From contig NZ_CP155729.1 of the NCBI RefSeq assembly GCF_039724765.1, positions 434,001 through 498,000 of the forward strand: DNA of 64,000 nt. Direction: 5' to 3'. Under the pieces are notes generated by a model. The model made no database searches, was not told the DNA's origin, and saw only the letters and a list, made by a program, of their open reading frames with translations. A program made the translations under genes and the position numbers. Below are positions 56,059 through 61,478 of the stretch, in pieces (within the stretch, counting starts at the first letter, position 1; every line of letters starts with the position of its first letter). Source of the stretch: Sagittula stellata E-37. Lineage in GTDB: Bacteria > Pseudomonadota > Alphaproteobacteria > Rhodobacterales > Rhodobacteraceae.

Positions 56059-56259
56059 ATGTCCTCAGATGTGACGATCCTCGCAATCGTGGCCGCATTC
56101 GTGACTTACGCAACGGCGCGCGCAAGCGGCTGGAAATTCAGTGCCAGCCGCTTCCTGGCCGAGAAACTCGTTCGCGCGCTCTACAAATGCGTCGGGGCAA
56201 GCTACGCCGAAAAGAAAGAGCCGCAAAAGCGCAGCACTGCCTGGGACTTCGCGAACTGA
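56059..56259 (+). CDS. Small membrane-associated protein of unknown function
   Basis: A 66-residue protein with one hydrophobic helix at the N-terminus (VTILAIVAAFVTYATA, residues 5-20) followed by a basic, amphipathic stretch (SRFLAEKLVRALYKCVGASYAEKK). The coding look (codon bias, GGGAAAAC ahead of the ATG at 56059) supports it. I do not recognise the family. Confidence 0.5.
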   Translation: MSSDVTILAIVAAFVTYATARASGWKFSASRFLAEKLVRALYKCVGASYAEKKEPQKRSTAWDFAN

Positions 56260-56291
56260 AAGCGCCGGGGCGTGCCCCGGCGCGTCGTGTC

Positions 56292-57854
56292 TCAGAGTTC
56301 CTTGTAGCTGATCTCGCGCTTGTCGGCGCCAGCGCCGACCTTTTCGCGACGGACGACAAGGCGGTTCAGCGCCTGGATATAGGCCAACGCCGAAGCGACC
56401 ACGGTGTCCGTATCGGCGGATTGGCCCGTGGCGATCACGCCGTCTTCTTCCAGCCGCACCGATACGGTGGCCTGCGCATCCGTGCCGGCCGTCACAGCGT
56501 TCACCTGGTAAAGCTGGAGCCGCGCCATGTTCGGGTGCAATGCGCGGATCGCCTTGAAAGTGGCGTCCACCGGGCCATCGCCTTCGGAGGTGGCCGTCAG
56601 GTCCTTTCCGTCGATTTCAAGTTCCACCTGTGCCTCCGCAGGGCCGCCCGTGCCGCAGACCACGCGCAGGTTCACGAGCGTGATGGCGTCGGCGCCTTCT
56701 GTGGTCGCGGAGACCAGCGCAAGGATGTCGTCGTCGAAGACCTCCTTCTTGCGGTCGGCAAGGTCCTTGAAGCGGACAAAGATGTCCTTGAGCTGATTGT
56801 CGCCCACCTCGGTCCCAAGGTCTTTCAGCTTGGCCCGCAGGGCGGCCCGGCCGGAGTGCTTGCCAAGCGGCAAGGAGGTGCCGGCGAGGCCGACATCCTC
56901 GGGGCGCATGATCTCGAAGGTTTCCGCGTTCTTCAGCATCCCGTCCTGGTGGATGCCCGATTCATGCGCGAAGGCGTTCTTTCCCACGATGGCCTTGTTC
57001 GGCTGCACCTGGAAGCCCGACACGGTCGCAACGCGACGCGAGATGTGCATGATCTTCTTCGTGTCGATCTGCGTGTCGAATGGCATGATGTCGTGCCGCA
57101 CGCGCATGGCCATCACGACCTCTTCCAGCGCGGTGTTGCCCGCGCGCTCACCCAGGCCGTTGATCGTGCACTCGATCTGGCGAGCGCCGGCCTCCACTGC
57201 GGCAAGGCTGTTCGCCGTCGCCATGCCAAGGTCGTTGTGACAATGCGTGGCAAAGACAATCTCGTCCGCGCCGGGCACCGTTTCGATCAGGCGGCGGATC
57301 AGGTCTGCGCTTTCGCGGGGCGCAGTATAGCCGACCGTGTCTGGGATGTTGATCGTCGTGGCGCCCGCCTTGATGGCGATTTCGATGACGCGGCAGAGGT
57401 AATCCCATTCAGTTCGTGTCGCGTCCATCGGCGACCACTGCACATTGTCGCAGATGTTGCGGGCGTGGCTGACGGTCTGTTCGATCCGCTCGGCCATTTC
57501 GTCCATGGTCAGGTTCGGGATGGCACGGTGCAGCGGCGAGGTGCCGATGAAGGTGTGGATGCGCGGGCGCTCCGCCTTCTTCACGGCTTCCCAGCAGCGG
57601 TCGATGTCGGGGATCTGGGCACGGGCGAGGCCGCAGATCACGGAGTTCCTGGACCGCTCGGCGATCTCGGAGACGGCGCGAAAGTCGCCTTCGGATGCGA
57701 TGGGGAATCCGGCCTCGATGATGTCGACGCCCATGTCGTCCAGAAGTTCGGCGATCTCCAGCTTCTCGTCGTGGGTCATGGTGGCCCCGGGCGATTGTTC
57801 GCCGTCGCGGAGCGTGGTGTCGAAGATGAGGACGCGGTTGCTGTCGGTGCTCAT
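56292..57854 (-). CDS. leuA: 2-Isopropylmalate synthase LeuA
   Basis: A 520-residue enzyme, the first committed step of leucine synthesis. The TIM barrel starts LIFDTTLRDGEQSPGATM; metal ligands are in FATHCHNDLGMATAN; NGLGERAGNTALEEVVMAM follows. The C-terminal LeuA regulatory domain (about 395-500), which binds leucine for feedback inhibition, is complete. It is 12 bases downstream of the cupin gene and thus shares its promoter, and the leucine-rich leader peptide upstream of the pair fits control by leucine supply. Confidence 0.96.
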   Translation of the reverse strand: MSTDSNRVLIFDTTLRDGEQSPGATMTHDEKLEIAELLDDMGVDIIEAGFPIASEGDFRAVSEIAERSRNSVICGLARAQIPDIDRCWEAVKKAERPRIHTFIGTSPLHRAIPNLTMDEMAERIEQTVSHARNICDNVQWSPMDATRTEWDYLCRVIEIAIKAGATTINIPDTVGYTAPRESADLIRRLIETVPGADEIVFATHCHNDLGMATANSLAAVEAGARQIECTINGLGERAGNTALEEVVMAMRVRHDIMPFDTQIDTKKIMHISRRVATVSGFQVQPNKAIVGKNAFAHESGIHQDGMLKNAETFEIMRPEDVGLAGTSLPLGKHSGRAALRAKLKDLGTEVGDNQLKDIFVRFKDLADRKKEVFDDDILALVSATTEGADAITLVNLRVVCGTGGPAEAQVELEIDGKDLTATSEGDGPVDATFKAIRALHPNMARLQLYQVNAVTAGTDAQATVSVRLEEDGVIATGQSADTDTVVASALAYIQALNRLVVRREKVGAGADKREISYKEL

Positions 57855-57866
57855 GGTCTTGATTCC

Positions 57867-58223
57867 TCAGATGCTCGGTTTGGAGGCCGGGGTCATGTCG
57901 GCGTCTCCGGAATTGGGTTCGCCCGCGGGCTCGATCAGGAGGACCTTGACCTCCTCCGTTGCGCGGGGCCTGTGGGTCTGTCCGGCGGGCACGACGACGA
58001 TTTCGCCCGTCCGCACCGTCACCGGGTCGTGGTCGTCGTAATCCATGACCATCTCGCCTTCGAGAACAAGGAAAAAGTCATCGGTCGTGTCGTGCTTGTG
58101 GAAGGGGAATTCTCCCTTGAATTTCACCACCATGACGTCGTTGCCATTGTAGCCGGCGACCACGTGCGGGTCCCAGTGGGTGGAAAACAGGGCCAGCTTT
58201 TCAGCCAGATTTATCGCTTTCAT
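57867..58223 (-). CDS. Small single-domain cupin protein
   Basis: A 118-residue cupin. Metal ligands are in KGEFPFHKHDTTDDFFLVLEG (two His and the Glu region) and PAGQTHRPRA (His). Substrate unknown; such cupins are often sugar- or small-molecule isomerases or sensors. The start at 58223 has AGGA eight bases upstream. That ribosome-binding region can pair with the leader RNA (8 bp), so translation is probably controlled. Its tight position before leuA suggests a link to branched-chain amino acid metabolism; this is inference. Confidence 0.85.
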   Translation of the reverse strand: MKAINLAEKLALFSTHWDPHVVAGYNGNDVMVVKFKGEFPFHKHDTTDDFFLVLEGEMVMDYDDHDPVTVRTGEIVVVPAGQTHRPRATEEVKVLLIEPAGEPNSGDADMTPASKPSI

Positions 58224-58228
58224 GAAGT

Positions 58229-58316
58229 ATCCTAACTCGTGCGTGAAGTGGGTCGGCGCGTCACACATGTCCTCTGAGCACGCGCGCCGATCGGGCCACG
58301 CTCAGAGGCGAGTTAG
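58229..58316 (-). promoter_or_regulatory. Leader RNA with alternative stems upstream of cupin-leuA
   Basis: On the minus strand: A CTAACTCG (58316-58309) pairs with A' CGAGTTAG (58239-58232), next to the cupin AGGA; B CCTCTGAGC (58308-58300) pairs with B' GCTCAGAGG (58279-58271); C TCGGCGCG (58290-58283) pairs with C' CGCGCCGA (58260-58253). All are perfect. C lies in the loop of B:B' while C' lies outside, so B:B' and C:C' either exclude each other or form an H-type pseudoknot. A covers the last Leu codons of the leader peptide. Confidence 0.6.
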
Positions 58317-58388
58317 CAGCAGGTCCAGGCCACGCGCAAACGGCGCCGGAAGGCGCTGGATGATCGCGATATGGGCCAAGGTCGTCAT
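58302..58388 (-). CDS. Putative leucine leader peptide (28 residues)
   Basis: The peptide is MTTLAHIAIIQR, then LPAPFARG, then LDLLLTRL. Its last eight codons are ctg gac ctg ctg cta act cgc ctc, five of them Leu, including CTA, which is rare in GC-rich genomes. The ATG is 7 bases after a good -10 element, so the mRNA is probably leaderless. The stop codon lies inside stem segment B. Both features resemble trp/leu attenuators of alphaproteobacteria, in which ribosome position on such codons decides the RNA fold. Not proven to be translated. Confidence 0.62.
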   Translation of the reverse strand: MTTLAHIAIIQRLPAPFARGLDLLLTRL

Positions 58389-58395
58389 GGCCGCC

Positions 58396-58423
58396 ACTAT
58401 ACGGACGGAATCGTGAATGAAAA
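58396..58423 (-). promoter_or_regulatory. Candidate promoter of the leader-cupin-leuA transcript
   Basis: Minus-strand -35 TTTTCA (58423-58418) and -10 TATAGT (58401-58396) are 16 bases apart. The expected RNA start coincides with or just precedes the ATG of the leader peptide. Confidence 0.55.
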
Positions 58424-58520: not shown

Positions 58521-61478
58521 ATGATCAGGACATGGGTAACGGCGGGCGCGCTGGCATTGGGCATAGCCCCGGGCGCGGGCCGGGCAGAGCTTTCGGTCGC
58601 AGAGGTCTATTTCTTCGGTAACTCGCTCGTGCATCACCTGAGCGAACAGTCGAAGGTCACCAACGTTCCGCACTGGTTGAACGAATTGGCGCAAGCCGAC
58701 GGGCGGTCCTTCGGCGTCGACGGCCAGTGGGGGTTCCTGCGCAACTTCTCGGACGGGCTGCCGCCGACCGCCAACTGGTCCTTCGACGGCGTTCAGGGCG
58801 TGTGGGGGCCGTCGCGGGGGTCCTTTGGCGATGCCGGGTTCGACGCGGTGGTGCTGACGCCGGCGAATTTCATCCAGTACCAGCTTCCCGACGTGCCCTA
58901 CGACGGCGACAACCCCAATGGCGAGACGCCGCTTGGCGCGATGCAGAAGCTGTTCGACTGGGTGCATGAGGAAAGCCCCGAAAGCACGTTGTTCATCTAC
59001 GAAGGCTGGGCGGAGATGGACGGCATCACCGGCCGCTTCCCCCCGCGCGAACGGGCCTTCGAGACGTATCACGAGGTCAATCGGGGCGATTACCACCAGT
59101 GGTATCTGGACCTGATCGACATGCTGGAGGTCACGCGCCCCGACTACGAAGTGGAACTGATCCCCGTCGCCTCGGTGCTGGCGGGGCTGATGGCGAAGGG
59201 CGGGCCGCTGGCCGATGTGCCGCCGCGCGATCTTTATGAGGACAGCGCGCCGCATGGCACGGCGTCGCTATATTTCCTTGCAGCCATGGTGACTTACGCC
59301 TGGATCTACGAGGTGCCGCCGCCCGAGGGATATCGCCCGCCCGCCACGCTGGTGCCCGCAGTGGTTGAGAACTACGCTGAGATTGCTCGCCTGATCTGGG
59401 AGGCCGCCCCGGTGCGCGAGGCTCGGGCCGCCGCCGAAACCGGGGGGGGCGTGGCTGTCGCCGAGGCGGTCGAGGCTTCGGGCGCCGACCTGCCGGAGCG
59501 CGAGGCGGTGATCCTGCCACCCGCCGGCATCCGGCCCGACGGGGTGCCGTCGCTGGGCATGGGTCTGAACGGGATCGCCGACTGGTCGACCCAGCATCCC
59601 TTTGTAGACATGATGAAATCTGCGCGCGGCTGGGTCGGACACACGTCAGAGGGCTGGGGCGCGATCTCGACGGCGGAACTGCGCGCCGGTGGCTACCTCG
59701 ACGAGAACGACTGGCCGGTGCGCGTTCCGGAAGAGGCGATTGCGCTGGAGTCGGTGCTGCTGACGGATCAGAACCCGGACCAGAGCTGGCTGCGTGGCTC
59801 CTACGTGCTGCGCTATGAGGGCACCGGCGAGCTGAAGGTATCGGGCCGGGCGAAGCGGGTGCGCTATGGCGATCACGAGGTTGGCTTCTTCTACGAGCCG
59901 GGCGAGGGTCTGGTGGGGGTCAGGATCACCGAGACGTCGGCCGACGATCCGATCCGCAACATCTCGGTCGTGAAGGAGGAGATGGTGCCGCTGTGGGAGG
60001 CGGGCGCGCTCTTCAATCCCTTGTTTCTTGATACAATTCAAGACGTTCGCGAAGTCAGGTTCATGGACTGGATGATGACCAACGGGTCCCCCGTGATGAC
60101 TTGGGAGGACCGCCCGGTCGTGGAACTGTCGACGTGGAGCGAGTGGGGCGTGCCGCTGGATGTGATGATCCGGCTGGCCAACGTCATCGGCGCCGACCCG
60201 TGGTTCACCATGCCGCATCAGGCCGACGACGCCTATGTCCGGCAGTTCGCCGAGATGGTGGAGCGCGATCTGGACCCGGGACTGAAGGCCTACGTGGAGT
60301 ATTCCAACGAGGTCTGGAACCAGATCTTTCCGCAGGCGGTCTATGCGCGGGAGCAGGCGACGGCGCTTTGGGGTGAGAGCGAGATGGGCTGGATGCAGTG
60401 GTACGGGCTGCGCTCGGCACAAGTGATGGACATCTGGACCGAAGTTTTCGGCGATGCGGCGGACGACCGGCTGGTTCGTGTGGCCGCGACACACACCGGT
60501 TGGCCGGGGCTTGAGGAGAACATCCTCGTGGCGCCGCTGGCCTATCTGGCGCTTGGCAAGAAGCCGGTGGAAAGCTTCGATGCCTATGCCGTCACGGGCT
60601 ATTTCGGATACGAAATGGGCACCGAGGAGATGGCCAAACGGATGGATGGATGGCTTGACCAGTCCGAGGCACTGGCGACCGAGGCCGGCGAGGCGGAGGG
60701 CCTGCGCCGCGTCGCGCTGCGCGAGTTCGTGAAGGGCGCGCGGTTCGAGGGGGCCATCGCGCCGGTGGCCAAGGCATTGGAAGAAGGGTCTTTATCGCAA
60801 CTCGTTAACGAAGTGTTCCCCTACCACGCCGACGCGGCAAGGAAATACGACCTGACGCTGGTGATGTACGAAGGCGGCACCCATGTCGCCGGGCATGGCG
60901 CGCGGGTGAACGACGAACGGCTGACCGCGTTCTTTCGGGAATTCAACTATACCCCTGAAATGGCGAAACTTTATGAAATCCTGATGGGCGGCTGGGCGGC
61001 TGCCGGGGGCACGTTGTTCAACGCCTTCGTGGACGTCGCACCGGCCACGCAATGGGGGTCCTGGGGCGCGTTAAGACATCTTGAGGATTCCAACCCGCGT
61101 TGGGACATGCTGATGGCCTACAACGCCTCTGGCCCACAGTGGGAAACCCGCGATCCCGTTGTTTTCGAAGACGGAATCCGGGCGCTGGGCTCTGGCGCGG
61201 ACGAGCGTGTGGAAGGCACGGCGGCAGAGGACTACCTCGTCGCGCTGGGCGGGGACGACGTTATCCTGACACGCGGCGGCGCGGACGTGGTGAACGGCGG
61301 CGCCGGGCGCGACGTTGCGGTTCTGCCCTTGCCCAAGGAAAGCTATGAATTCCAGAAGGTTGGCGACCGGCTGGAGGTCACCGGACCGGATGGCACAATC
61401 CGTATGTTCGGAGTCGAGGCGCTGCGATTCGAGGCCGAGGACGGTCCCGAGATGGCGGTCGAGAGCCTCGGGGGTTAA
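58521..61478 (+). CDS. Large exported SGNH-like plus glycosidase-like protein with RTX-type tail
   Basis: A 985-residue protein with a signal peptide (to about residue 22). Part 1 (about 25-330) resembles an SGNH hydrolase: Ser35 in FFGNSLVHH and Asp241/His245 in EDSAPHG. Part 2 (about 345-880) looks like a TIM-barrel glycosidase of clan GH-A: YVEYSNEVWN with candidate acid/base Glu597 and VMYEGGTH with candidate nucleophile Glu784. Part 3 (about 895-985) has one to two Gly-Asp repeats (TRGGADVVNGGAGRDVA) of the calcium-binding RTX kind. It likely acts on an exported, acylated polysaccharide. The start at 58521 follows a weak GGCAGGG. Next to glycosyltransferases. Confidence 0.65.
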   Translation: MIRTWVTAGALALGIAPGAGRAELSVAEVYFFGNSLVHHLSEQSKVTNVPHWLNELAQADGRSFGVDGQWGFLRNFSDGLPPTANWSFDGVQGVWGPSRGSFGDAGFDAVVLTPANFIQYQLPDVPYDGDNPNGETPLGAMQKLFDWVHEESPESTLFIYEGWAEMDGITGRFPPRERAFETYHEVNRGDYHQWYLDLIDMLEVTRPDYEVELIPVASVLAGLMAKGGPLADVPPRDLYEDSAPHGTASLYFLAAMVTYAWIYEVPPPEGYRPPATLVPAVVENYAEIARLIWEAAPVREARAAAETGGGVAVAEAVEASGADLPEREAVILPPAGIRPDGVPSLGMGLNGIADWSTQHPFVDMMKSARGWVGHTSEGWGAISTAELRAGGYLDENDWPVRVPEEAIALESVLLTDQNPDQSWLRGSYVLRYEGTGELKVSGRAKRVRYGDHEVGFFYEPGEGLVGVRITETSADDPIRNISVVKEEMVPLWEAGALFNPLFLDTIQDVREVRFMDWMMTNGSPVMTWEDRPVVELSTWSEWGVPLDVMIRLANVIGADPWFTMPHQADDAYVRQFAEMVERDLDPGLKAYVEYSNEVWNQIFPQAVYAREQATALWGESEMGWMQWYGLRSAQVMDIWTEVFGDAADDRLVRVAATHTGWPGLEENILVAPLAYLALGKKPVESFDAYAVTGYFGYEMGTEEMAKRMDGWLDQSEALATEAGEAEGLRRVALREFVKGARFEGAIAPVAKALEEGSLSQLVNEVFPYHADAARKYDLTLVMYEGGTHVAGHGARVNDERLTAFFREFNYTPEMAKLYEILMGGWAAAGGTLFNAFVDVAPATQWGSWGALRHLEDSNPRWDMLMAYNASGPQWETRDPVVFEDGIRALGSGADERVEGTAAEDYLVALGGDDVILTRGGADVVNGGAGRDVAVLPLPKESYEFQKVGDRLEVTGPDGTIRMFGVEALRFEAEDGPEMAVESLGG

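Follow-up and report, generated by a model that had tools for sequence, protein, structure and literature searches.

A probable leucine-responsive translational attenuator upstream of leuA in the Rhodobacteraceae

The leuA transcription unit of Sagittula stellata E-37 is preceded by a short leader that ends in a cluster of leucine codons, and by RNA segments that can pair into three stems, P1, P2 and P3. Together these parts probably constitute a leucine-responsive translational attenuator, in which a ribosome would stall on the leader when leucine is short. The leader, its codon bias, the promoter spacing, the P1, P2 and P3 pairings and the gene order were obtained by sequence comparison, and from them we infer the transcription start, the stalling, the response to leucine and the coupling of the genes. 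The window is the whole stretch of DNA analysed, 64,000 nucleotides in length. The genes lie on its minus strand in the order leader, cupin, leuA, with 12 nt between the cupin stop and the ATG of leuA. The features are:

58418..58423, minus strand: -35-like hexamer TTTTCA
58396..58401, minus strand: -10 hexamer TATAGT, separated by 7 nt from the leader ATG (58388)
58302..58388, minus strand: leader ORF of 28 codons plus stop, ending LDLLLTRL-stop, predicted leaderless
58314..58316, minus strand: Leu codon -4 of the leader (CTA in the window)
58309..58316, minus strand: P3 5' arm CTAACTCG, Leu codon -4 plus downstream bases
58298..58308, minus strand: P1 5' arm, holding the leader stop UGA
58283..58290, minus strand: P2 5' arm TCGGCGCG, in the P1 loop (putative pseudoknot)
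58271..58281, minus strand: P1 3' arm
58253..58260, minus strand: P2 3' arm CGCGCCGA
58232..58239, minus strand: P3 3' arm CGAGTTAG, overlapping the cupin Shine-Dalgarno AGGA (58233 - 58230)
57867..58223, minus strand: cupin gene (Cupin_2), 118 aa, between the leader and leuA
56292..57854, minus strand: leuA, 2-isopropylmalate synthase, 520 aa

A divergent plus-strand frame of about 985 aa (58521 - 61478) starts close to the leader promoter; in its product Pfam recognised only a short RTX calcium-binding repeat near the C-terminus. Another plus-strand open frame, 682 aa long (56187 - 58235), is antisense to leuA and the cupin gene and probably results from the high G+C content of the coding DNA. 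A search of the genome of S. stellata for further copies of the element yielded none that was credible among the 150 of 6174 first-look candidates that were scored, the next best having an E value of 2.1.

Relatives used for the comparison

Taken by itself, the element in the window folds only mildly better than shuffled sequence (z = -2.1), and therefore the relatives had to decide. A search of the family's 198 genomes matched LeuA in 191 (E <= 1e-200). DNA upstream of leuA was taken from 110 of the 191 genome matches (30 loci and 80 regions) and from 80 named leuA loci on genome contigs. Removal of 7 loci without the LeuA orientation motif and of 5 duplicates reduced these 190 loci to 178 unique ones. 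Nearly all of them carry the label Rhodobacteraceae or Rhodobacterales; for a few named records the label is Alphaproteobacteria only, and one is Neomegalonema. Leaders were recognised in 175 loci by a rule demanding at least 3 Leu in the last 8 codons. Removal of near-identical rows left 151, and omission of a false leader (L157) left 150. In the resulting alignment the window's row lacks its 3' part and the other 149 rows are unaffected. The start of the next gene could be assigned in 147 of the 150 nonredundant loci, and the remaining 3 were left out wherever that start was needed.

L215, another gene whose product has a LeuA dimerisation domain and which we take to resemble the citramalate-synthase type, was rejected, as its frame departs from the LeuA motif applied here; no leader was visible by eye in the 357 nt before its start.

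The leader and its leucine codons

The 28 codons of the window's leader are MTTLAHIAIIQRLPAPFARGLDLLLTRL. The last eight, CTG GAC CTG CTG CTA ACT CGC CTC, comprise five Leu codons. The frame, the five leucines and the CTA are all where the first-pass annotation, which was made from the letters of the window alone, had placed them, and the usage in leuA bears out its statement that CTA is rare.

The annotation had proposed looking for conserved Leu codons upstream of leuA in relatives. Scanning the 1000 nt before leuA for a frame whose last 8 codons include 4 or more Leu finds one in 171 of the 178 unique loci compared to 1 of 178 on the reverse strand. The relaxed rule of at least 3 raises the number to 175, and no leader was found at L081 (for which 207 nt of upstream DNA were at hand), L120 and L193. 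The leader stop is UGA in all 175 leaders found by the relaxed rule, and in 173 of them it stands in the context TGAGCG. Every one of the 175 leaders has Leu at codon -4, written CTA or CTT in 171 of them. CTA makes up 21.9% of the 590 leader Leu codons compared to 0.8% of the 3064 Leu codons in 83 leuA coding sequences, an enrichment of about 27-fold. The search rule selects in part for the Leu counts, while the TGAGCG context, the choice of codons and the promoter spacing are free of that selection.

Near the start of the window's leader, His-Ile (58368 - 58373, codons 6 and 7) is written CAT ATC, and related leaders also use these codons beyond what codon usage predicts. The His codons of 139 leaders are CAT in 85 cases and CAC in 9, compared to 542 CAT and 662 CAC in leuA coding sequences. 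From the CAT ATC bias, there seems to be conservation at the nucleotide level about 15 - 20 nt after the predicted start.

The promoter and the predicted leaderless start

The -10 box that the annotation described, ending 7 bases before the leader ATG, is present, and its spacing is conserved: of the 150 nonredundant leaders, 139 have a -10 box (at least 4 of 6 positions matching) whose end lies 6 - 9 nt ahead of an in-frame ATG, the distance being 7 or 8 in 122. Other ATGs, drawn as matched controls, pass this rule in 8.9% of cases. Among the 139 leaders, T occupies -35 and -34 in 125 and 126, respectively, and a pyrimidine directly precedes the leader ATG in 138. The transcript thus probably begins at or beside the A of the leader AUG, and translation of the leader would be leaderless.

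Interlocking stems P1 and P2

All three perfect stems described by the annotation are present in the window. The first, 58308-58300 with 58279-58271, belongs to P1 and includes the leader's UGA (58304-58302), which had likewise been placed in a stem segment. The second, P2, joins TCGGCGCG (58290-58283) to CGCGCCGA (58260-58253) without a mismatch; the third is P3.

Across the 150-sequence alignment, 98.3% of the cells are paired at the 10 pairs of P1 and 92.0% at the 6-pair core of P2. Two pairs extending P2 form in 62.7% of cells, and the outer pair of P2 is unpaired in 59 of 148 cells. Cells changed on both sides number 89, where shuffles give 26.5. The covariation score was not reached in any of 500 shuffles, which are of a kind that does not preserve the relatedness of the sequences. 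Pairing falls to 35 - 54% when the partner strands are slid, a control in which the native register is favoured because the structure was derived from the same sequences. The longest P2 stem has 7.3 pairs on average, compared to about 5.6 with shuffled 3' sides.

The annotation had left open whether the two interlocking stems exclude each other or form a pseudoknot. That they interlock is confirmed, and their joint conservation makes an H-type pseudoknot more probable than stems that exclude each other. The loops around the core, mostly 7 - 8, 3 and 6 - 11 nt long, look compatible with both helices forming together. The predicted pseudoknot is a feature of the Rhodobacteraceae set.

Pairing of the leucine codons with the next initiation region

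For 147 loci, P3 was given the score of the strongest stem that leader nucleotides -21 to -5 can form with the stretch of at most 45 nt before the next start. The mean score is 16.3 for native leaders, compared to 12.65 when leaders are swapped between loci (standard deviation of the replicate means 0.22) and 12.4 when their codons are replaced by synonymous ones according to leuA usage; native leaders score higher than synonymous ones in 113 of the 147 loci. The initiation region is also predicted to be less open with native codons (0.496) than with synonymous codons (0.549), the native value being lower in 100 of 147 loci.

Compensatory changes in all three stems had been proposed as a check. 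P1 and P2 do show them; P3 is strong, with a score of at least 16, in only 78 of 147 loci and falls below 16 in the other 69. In 46 of the 78 strong loci its 3' arm ends 14 - 20 nt before the start, which is beside the Shine-Dalgarno sequence, just upstream, and not on it.

A ribosome placed on codon -4 raises the mean predicted openness of the initiation region from 0.50 to 0.61 in the 147 loci, in a calculation that ignores the pseudoknot. Openness increases by more than 0.05 in 67% of these loci and decreases by as much in 8%; in the window it changes from 0.242 to 0.467. A ribosome on the other Leu codons gives 0.578 - 0.601 and one on the stop codon 0.607. The calculation thus shows that occupancy would open the initiation site but does not single out codon -4, so that discrimination would have to come from dwell time.

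The element outside the Rhodobacteraceae

A covariance model built from the alignment was searched against 385 genomes of the class and gave a match (E <= 0.01) in 37, of which 32 are outside the family. From these outside matches 25 loci were taken, and 24 of them lie ahead of a LeuA frame. A separate search for LeuA in 105 genomes gave 56 matches (E <= 1e-120), 54 of them outside the family, and one locus was examined from each of 48 of the 54. The leader rule that asks for 4 or more Leu among the last 8 codons is satisfied by 13 of the 48 loci on the forward strand compared to 2 of 48 on the reverse strand; with at least 3 Leu the counts are 32 and 11. A tail rule that was composed after inspecting the outside-family tails, L(R/L)Lxx with P, L or A next and then a stop, finds 28 of 48 loci compared to 0 of 48 in reverse. 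These 28, together with 21 loci from the model or from named contigs, comprise an outside set of 49 loci.

P1 in this set averages 9.8 pairs compared to 5.8 in shuffled sequence, a property for which the set was partly selected. The stop is UAG or UAA in place of UGA in five loci; the partner strand matches the changed stop in four (L260, L268, L272 and L285), and the fifth, L282, is doubtful. The P3 score is 16.8 for native leaders, compared to 14.0 for swapped and 13.8 for synonymous ones, and is higher for the native leader in 38 of 49 loci. It reaches at least 16 in 29 loci, in 17 of which the arm ends at most 11 nt from the leuA start; an example is TCCTTCGA paired with TCGAAGGA. P2 and the pseudoknot are unsupported in the outside set (mean stem 5.8 pairs, shuffled 6.0), and the leaderless promoter spacing occurs in 5 of 49 loci compared to 9.2% in the control, with ATG starts alone considered. 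On this comparison, the leader, the stem at its stop codon and the Shine-Dalgarno pairing persist in other families of the class, as a simpler form of the element, whereas the predicted pseudoknot and the leaderless promoter do not and are features of the Rhodobacteraceae.

These loci bear on a different, unlikely reading, in which the pseudoknot binds a protein or another factor, as was proposed for the actinobacterial LEU element, the Leu codons serve mainly as RNA that pairs with the Shine-Dalgarno sequence, and translation of the leader is not the sensor. Such a reading would suit the very conserved sequences of P1 and P2, and PMC1262725 argues for protein binding in Actinobacteria; it sits poorly with a codon -4 that is Leu in 175 of 175 leaders, and with the enrichment of rare CTA, while the pairing bases vary between lineages. 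The frame, the -10 spacing and the stop codon, all of which are kept, also speak against it, as does the persistence of the leader and of its pairing with the initiation region where the pseudoknot is unsupported.

Transcription termination and reinitiation

Classical leu attenuators act by transcription attenuation, and an untranslated leuA mRNA could be a target for Rho. With these as models, the ribosome on the leader might decide between an antiterminator and a terminator, possibly with the help of Rho, as no run of U follows P1 or P2. This is slightly less likely still than binding of a protein. At least 5 T in 8 nt occur after P1 in 4 of 150 loci and after P2 in 4 of 150, and the annotation was right that U-rich terminators are missing from the stretch that follows these two stems. 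Between the leader stop and 75 nt into the next gene, terminator-like sites are found in 12 of 147 loci compared to 1.9 expected from shuffles, an excess in favour of transcription attenuation. Yet in 11 of the 12 loci, the window included, the site is within the first codons of the next gene, where it may follow from the protein sequence encoded there. An intrinsic terminator with a U-tract between the leader and the structural gene is not the rule, being present in 1 of 147 loci. In the window, two overlapping weak sites (minus strand, 58208-58191) lie within the first cupin codons. The extra constraint on the leader codons is, moreover, their pairing with the initiation region, which argues against a terminator. 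Two findings favour translational control over control by a terminator: the rarity of terminator-like sites between the leader and the next gene (1 of 147 loci) and the pairing of the Leu codons with the initiation region.

Short upstream ORFs near the next gene have been proposed to raise its translation (PMC4833913), but a leader that merely loads ribosomes or feeds the next gene by reinitiation, with no sensing of leucine, is highly improbable here. The next start follows the first base of the leader stop at a distance of at least 60 nt, and such a leader would account for neither the Leu bias nor the P3 pairing.

The inserted cupin gene

A cupin gene separates the leader from leuA in only 12 of 178 loci. 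As judged from these loci, the element belongs to leuA, and the cupin gene has been inserted in a minority of the genomes. The cupin gene is present in one of three congeners and gave no match in the other two. In 13 of 13 cupin loci (the 12 and one congener) the 3' arm of P3 lies on the cupin Shine-Dalgarno sequence and ends 4 - 10 nt before the start. The mean P3 score is 19.3 for the native leaders of the 13 loci, compared to 14.1 for the leaders of other cupin loci placed on the same Shine-Dalgarno sequence. The native stem is better than the mean of the foreign leaders in 12 of 13 loci; the exception, L029, has a P3 of 4 pairs and scores below that mean. In 6 of 13 loci at least one foreign leader outscores the native one. 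The two arms differ together between loci: CTAACTCG is found with CGAGTTAG, TCCTAACC with GGTTAGGA, TCCTTAGCC with GGCTAAGGA and TCTTAGTCG with CGACTAAGG. In 12 of the 13 loci the leuA ATG starts 13 - 18 nt downstream of where the cupin stop codon begins, which suggests that the translation of leuA is coupled to that of the cupin gene.

No credible remnant of a cupin gene was found in the long spacers of L056, L044, L064, L121, L139, L039 and L197 or in the congeners L299 and L300 (best E 0.34 across all spacers and congeners searched). When the leaders of L024 and L298 were compared by eye with those of L299 and L300 and of L025, L028, L056 and L058, the window's leader (RLPAPFARGLDLLLTRL) appeared closer to leaders of other genera than to those of the two cupin-less congeners, and because of this likeness this stretch may have been exchanged between genera. 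L056 has a similar leader and no cupin match.

Proposed mechanism

The stalling attenuator would work as follows. The leader would be translated as a leaderless message from a transcript starting at, or next to, the A of its AUG. With leucyl-tRNA plentiful, the ribosome would pass the Leu codons, stop at UGA and leave. P1 and P2 would then form the pseudoknot, and P3 would close the ribosome-binding region of the next gene (the cupin gene in the window) by pairing it with the segment of Leu codons. With leucyl-tRNA short, the ribosome would stall on the rare Leu codons and cover the 5' arm of P3, so that the initiation region would stay open. The leuA gene, 12 nt past the cupin stop, would follow by translational coupling. 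The comparison of orthologous regions, in which a missing Leu cluster or missing stem covariation would count against this mechanism, was carried out and did not refute it.

Should the mechanism hold, it would add a step governed by leucine to what is known of common marine bacteria, and it would show how a gene that has been inserted behind an attenuator can come under it when its own ribosome-binding site changes.

Comparison with known systems

Rfam (release 15), its Leu leader included, has no covariance model that matches the window between 57800 and 58700 at E values up to 1. Among the papers listed by searches of the open literature, none is an earlier report of the element in Alphaproteobacteria. 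The Leu leader of enterobacteria, RF00512, is a leader with Leu codons before the leu operon and has a transcription terminator. The trpL attenuator of Sinorhizobium meliloti responds to tryptophan and acts by transcription termination, and its regulatory codons are not known to pair with a Shine-Dalgarno sequence. According to PMC10117765, trpL (rnTrpL) shares with the present element a leaderless leader peptide in an alphaproteobacterium. The upstream ORF uORFC-8-2 before cysS of Rhodobacterales, as described in PMC8632094, is also specific for an amino acid and belongs to the same order of bacteria, but it has cysteine codons and a terminator stem.

The closest likeness is with the LEU element of Actinobacteria (Seliverstov et al. 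2005, PMC1262725). Both elements are upstream of leuA and have a leader ORF with a run of Leu codons, a pseudoknot (a predicted one here) and a base stem between Leu codons and a Shine-Dalgarno sequence. A pseudoknot downstream of the Leu codons is supported in the family by the covariation of P1 and P2. The stem between Leu codons and the Shine-Dalgarno sequence can form in the window, in 12 of 13 cupin loci and in many Alphaproteobacteria outside the family; where the stem is strong in Rhodobacteraceae, its arm mostly lies just upstream of the Shine-Dalgarno sequence. On the sequence evidence, the architecture matches that of the LEU element. The two differ in phylum. The leader described here mostly has about 28 codons with its stop inside P1, the pseudoknot is supported only in the Rhodobacteraceae set, and a cupin gene is inserted in 12 of 178 loci.

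The leuA leader of Streptomyces lividans is leaderless and lacks a typical terminator, according to PMC8079986. In Streptomyces coelicolor, mutations in the leuA leader had an effect that was not consistent with classical attenuation, and the conclusion given in PMC1262725 is that mutation of the Leu codons does not influence the regulation. Its authors favoured a binding protein, on the grounds of these mutation data and of the lack of conserved unpaired nucleotides for a ligand pocket. The S. coelicolor data count against the stalling step and are the main limit on confidence in the stalling attenuator.

It is tempting, though rather speculative, to suppose that an old alphaproteobacterial leucine attenuator shares its plan, and perhaps its origin, with the LEU element. 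Its Leu codons would act as an anti-Shine-Dalgarno sequence, and its stop would stay in a stem even when the stop codon changes. The Rhodobacteraceae would have gained the pseudoknot and the leaderless start, and new genes such as the cupin gene would be captured by landing behind the leader and matching their Shine-Dalgarno sequences to its codons. The mechanism of the LEU element was left open in 2005 (PMC1262725). The alphaproteobacterial form offers some two hundred sequences for comparison (150 from the family and 49 from outside it), covariation and tractable hosts, and its natural variants with and without the pseudoknot make the roles of leader translation and of the pseudoknot directly testable.
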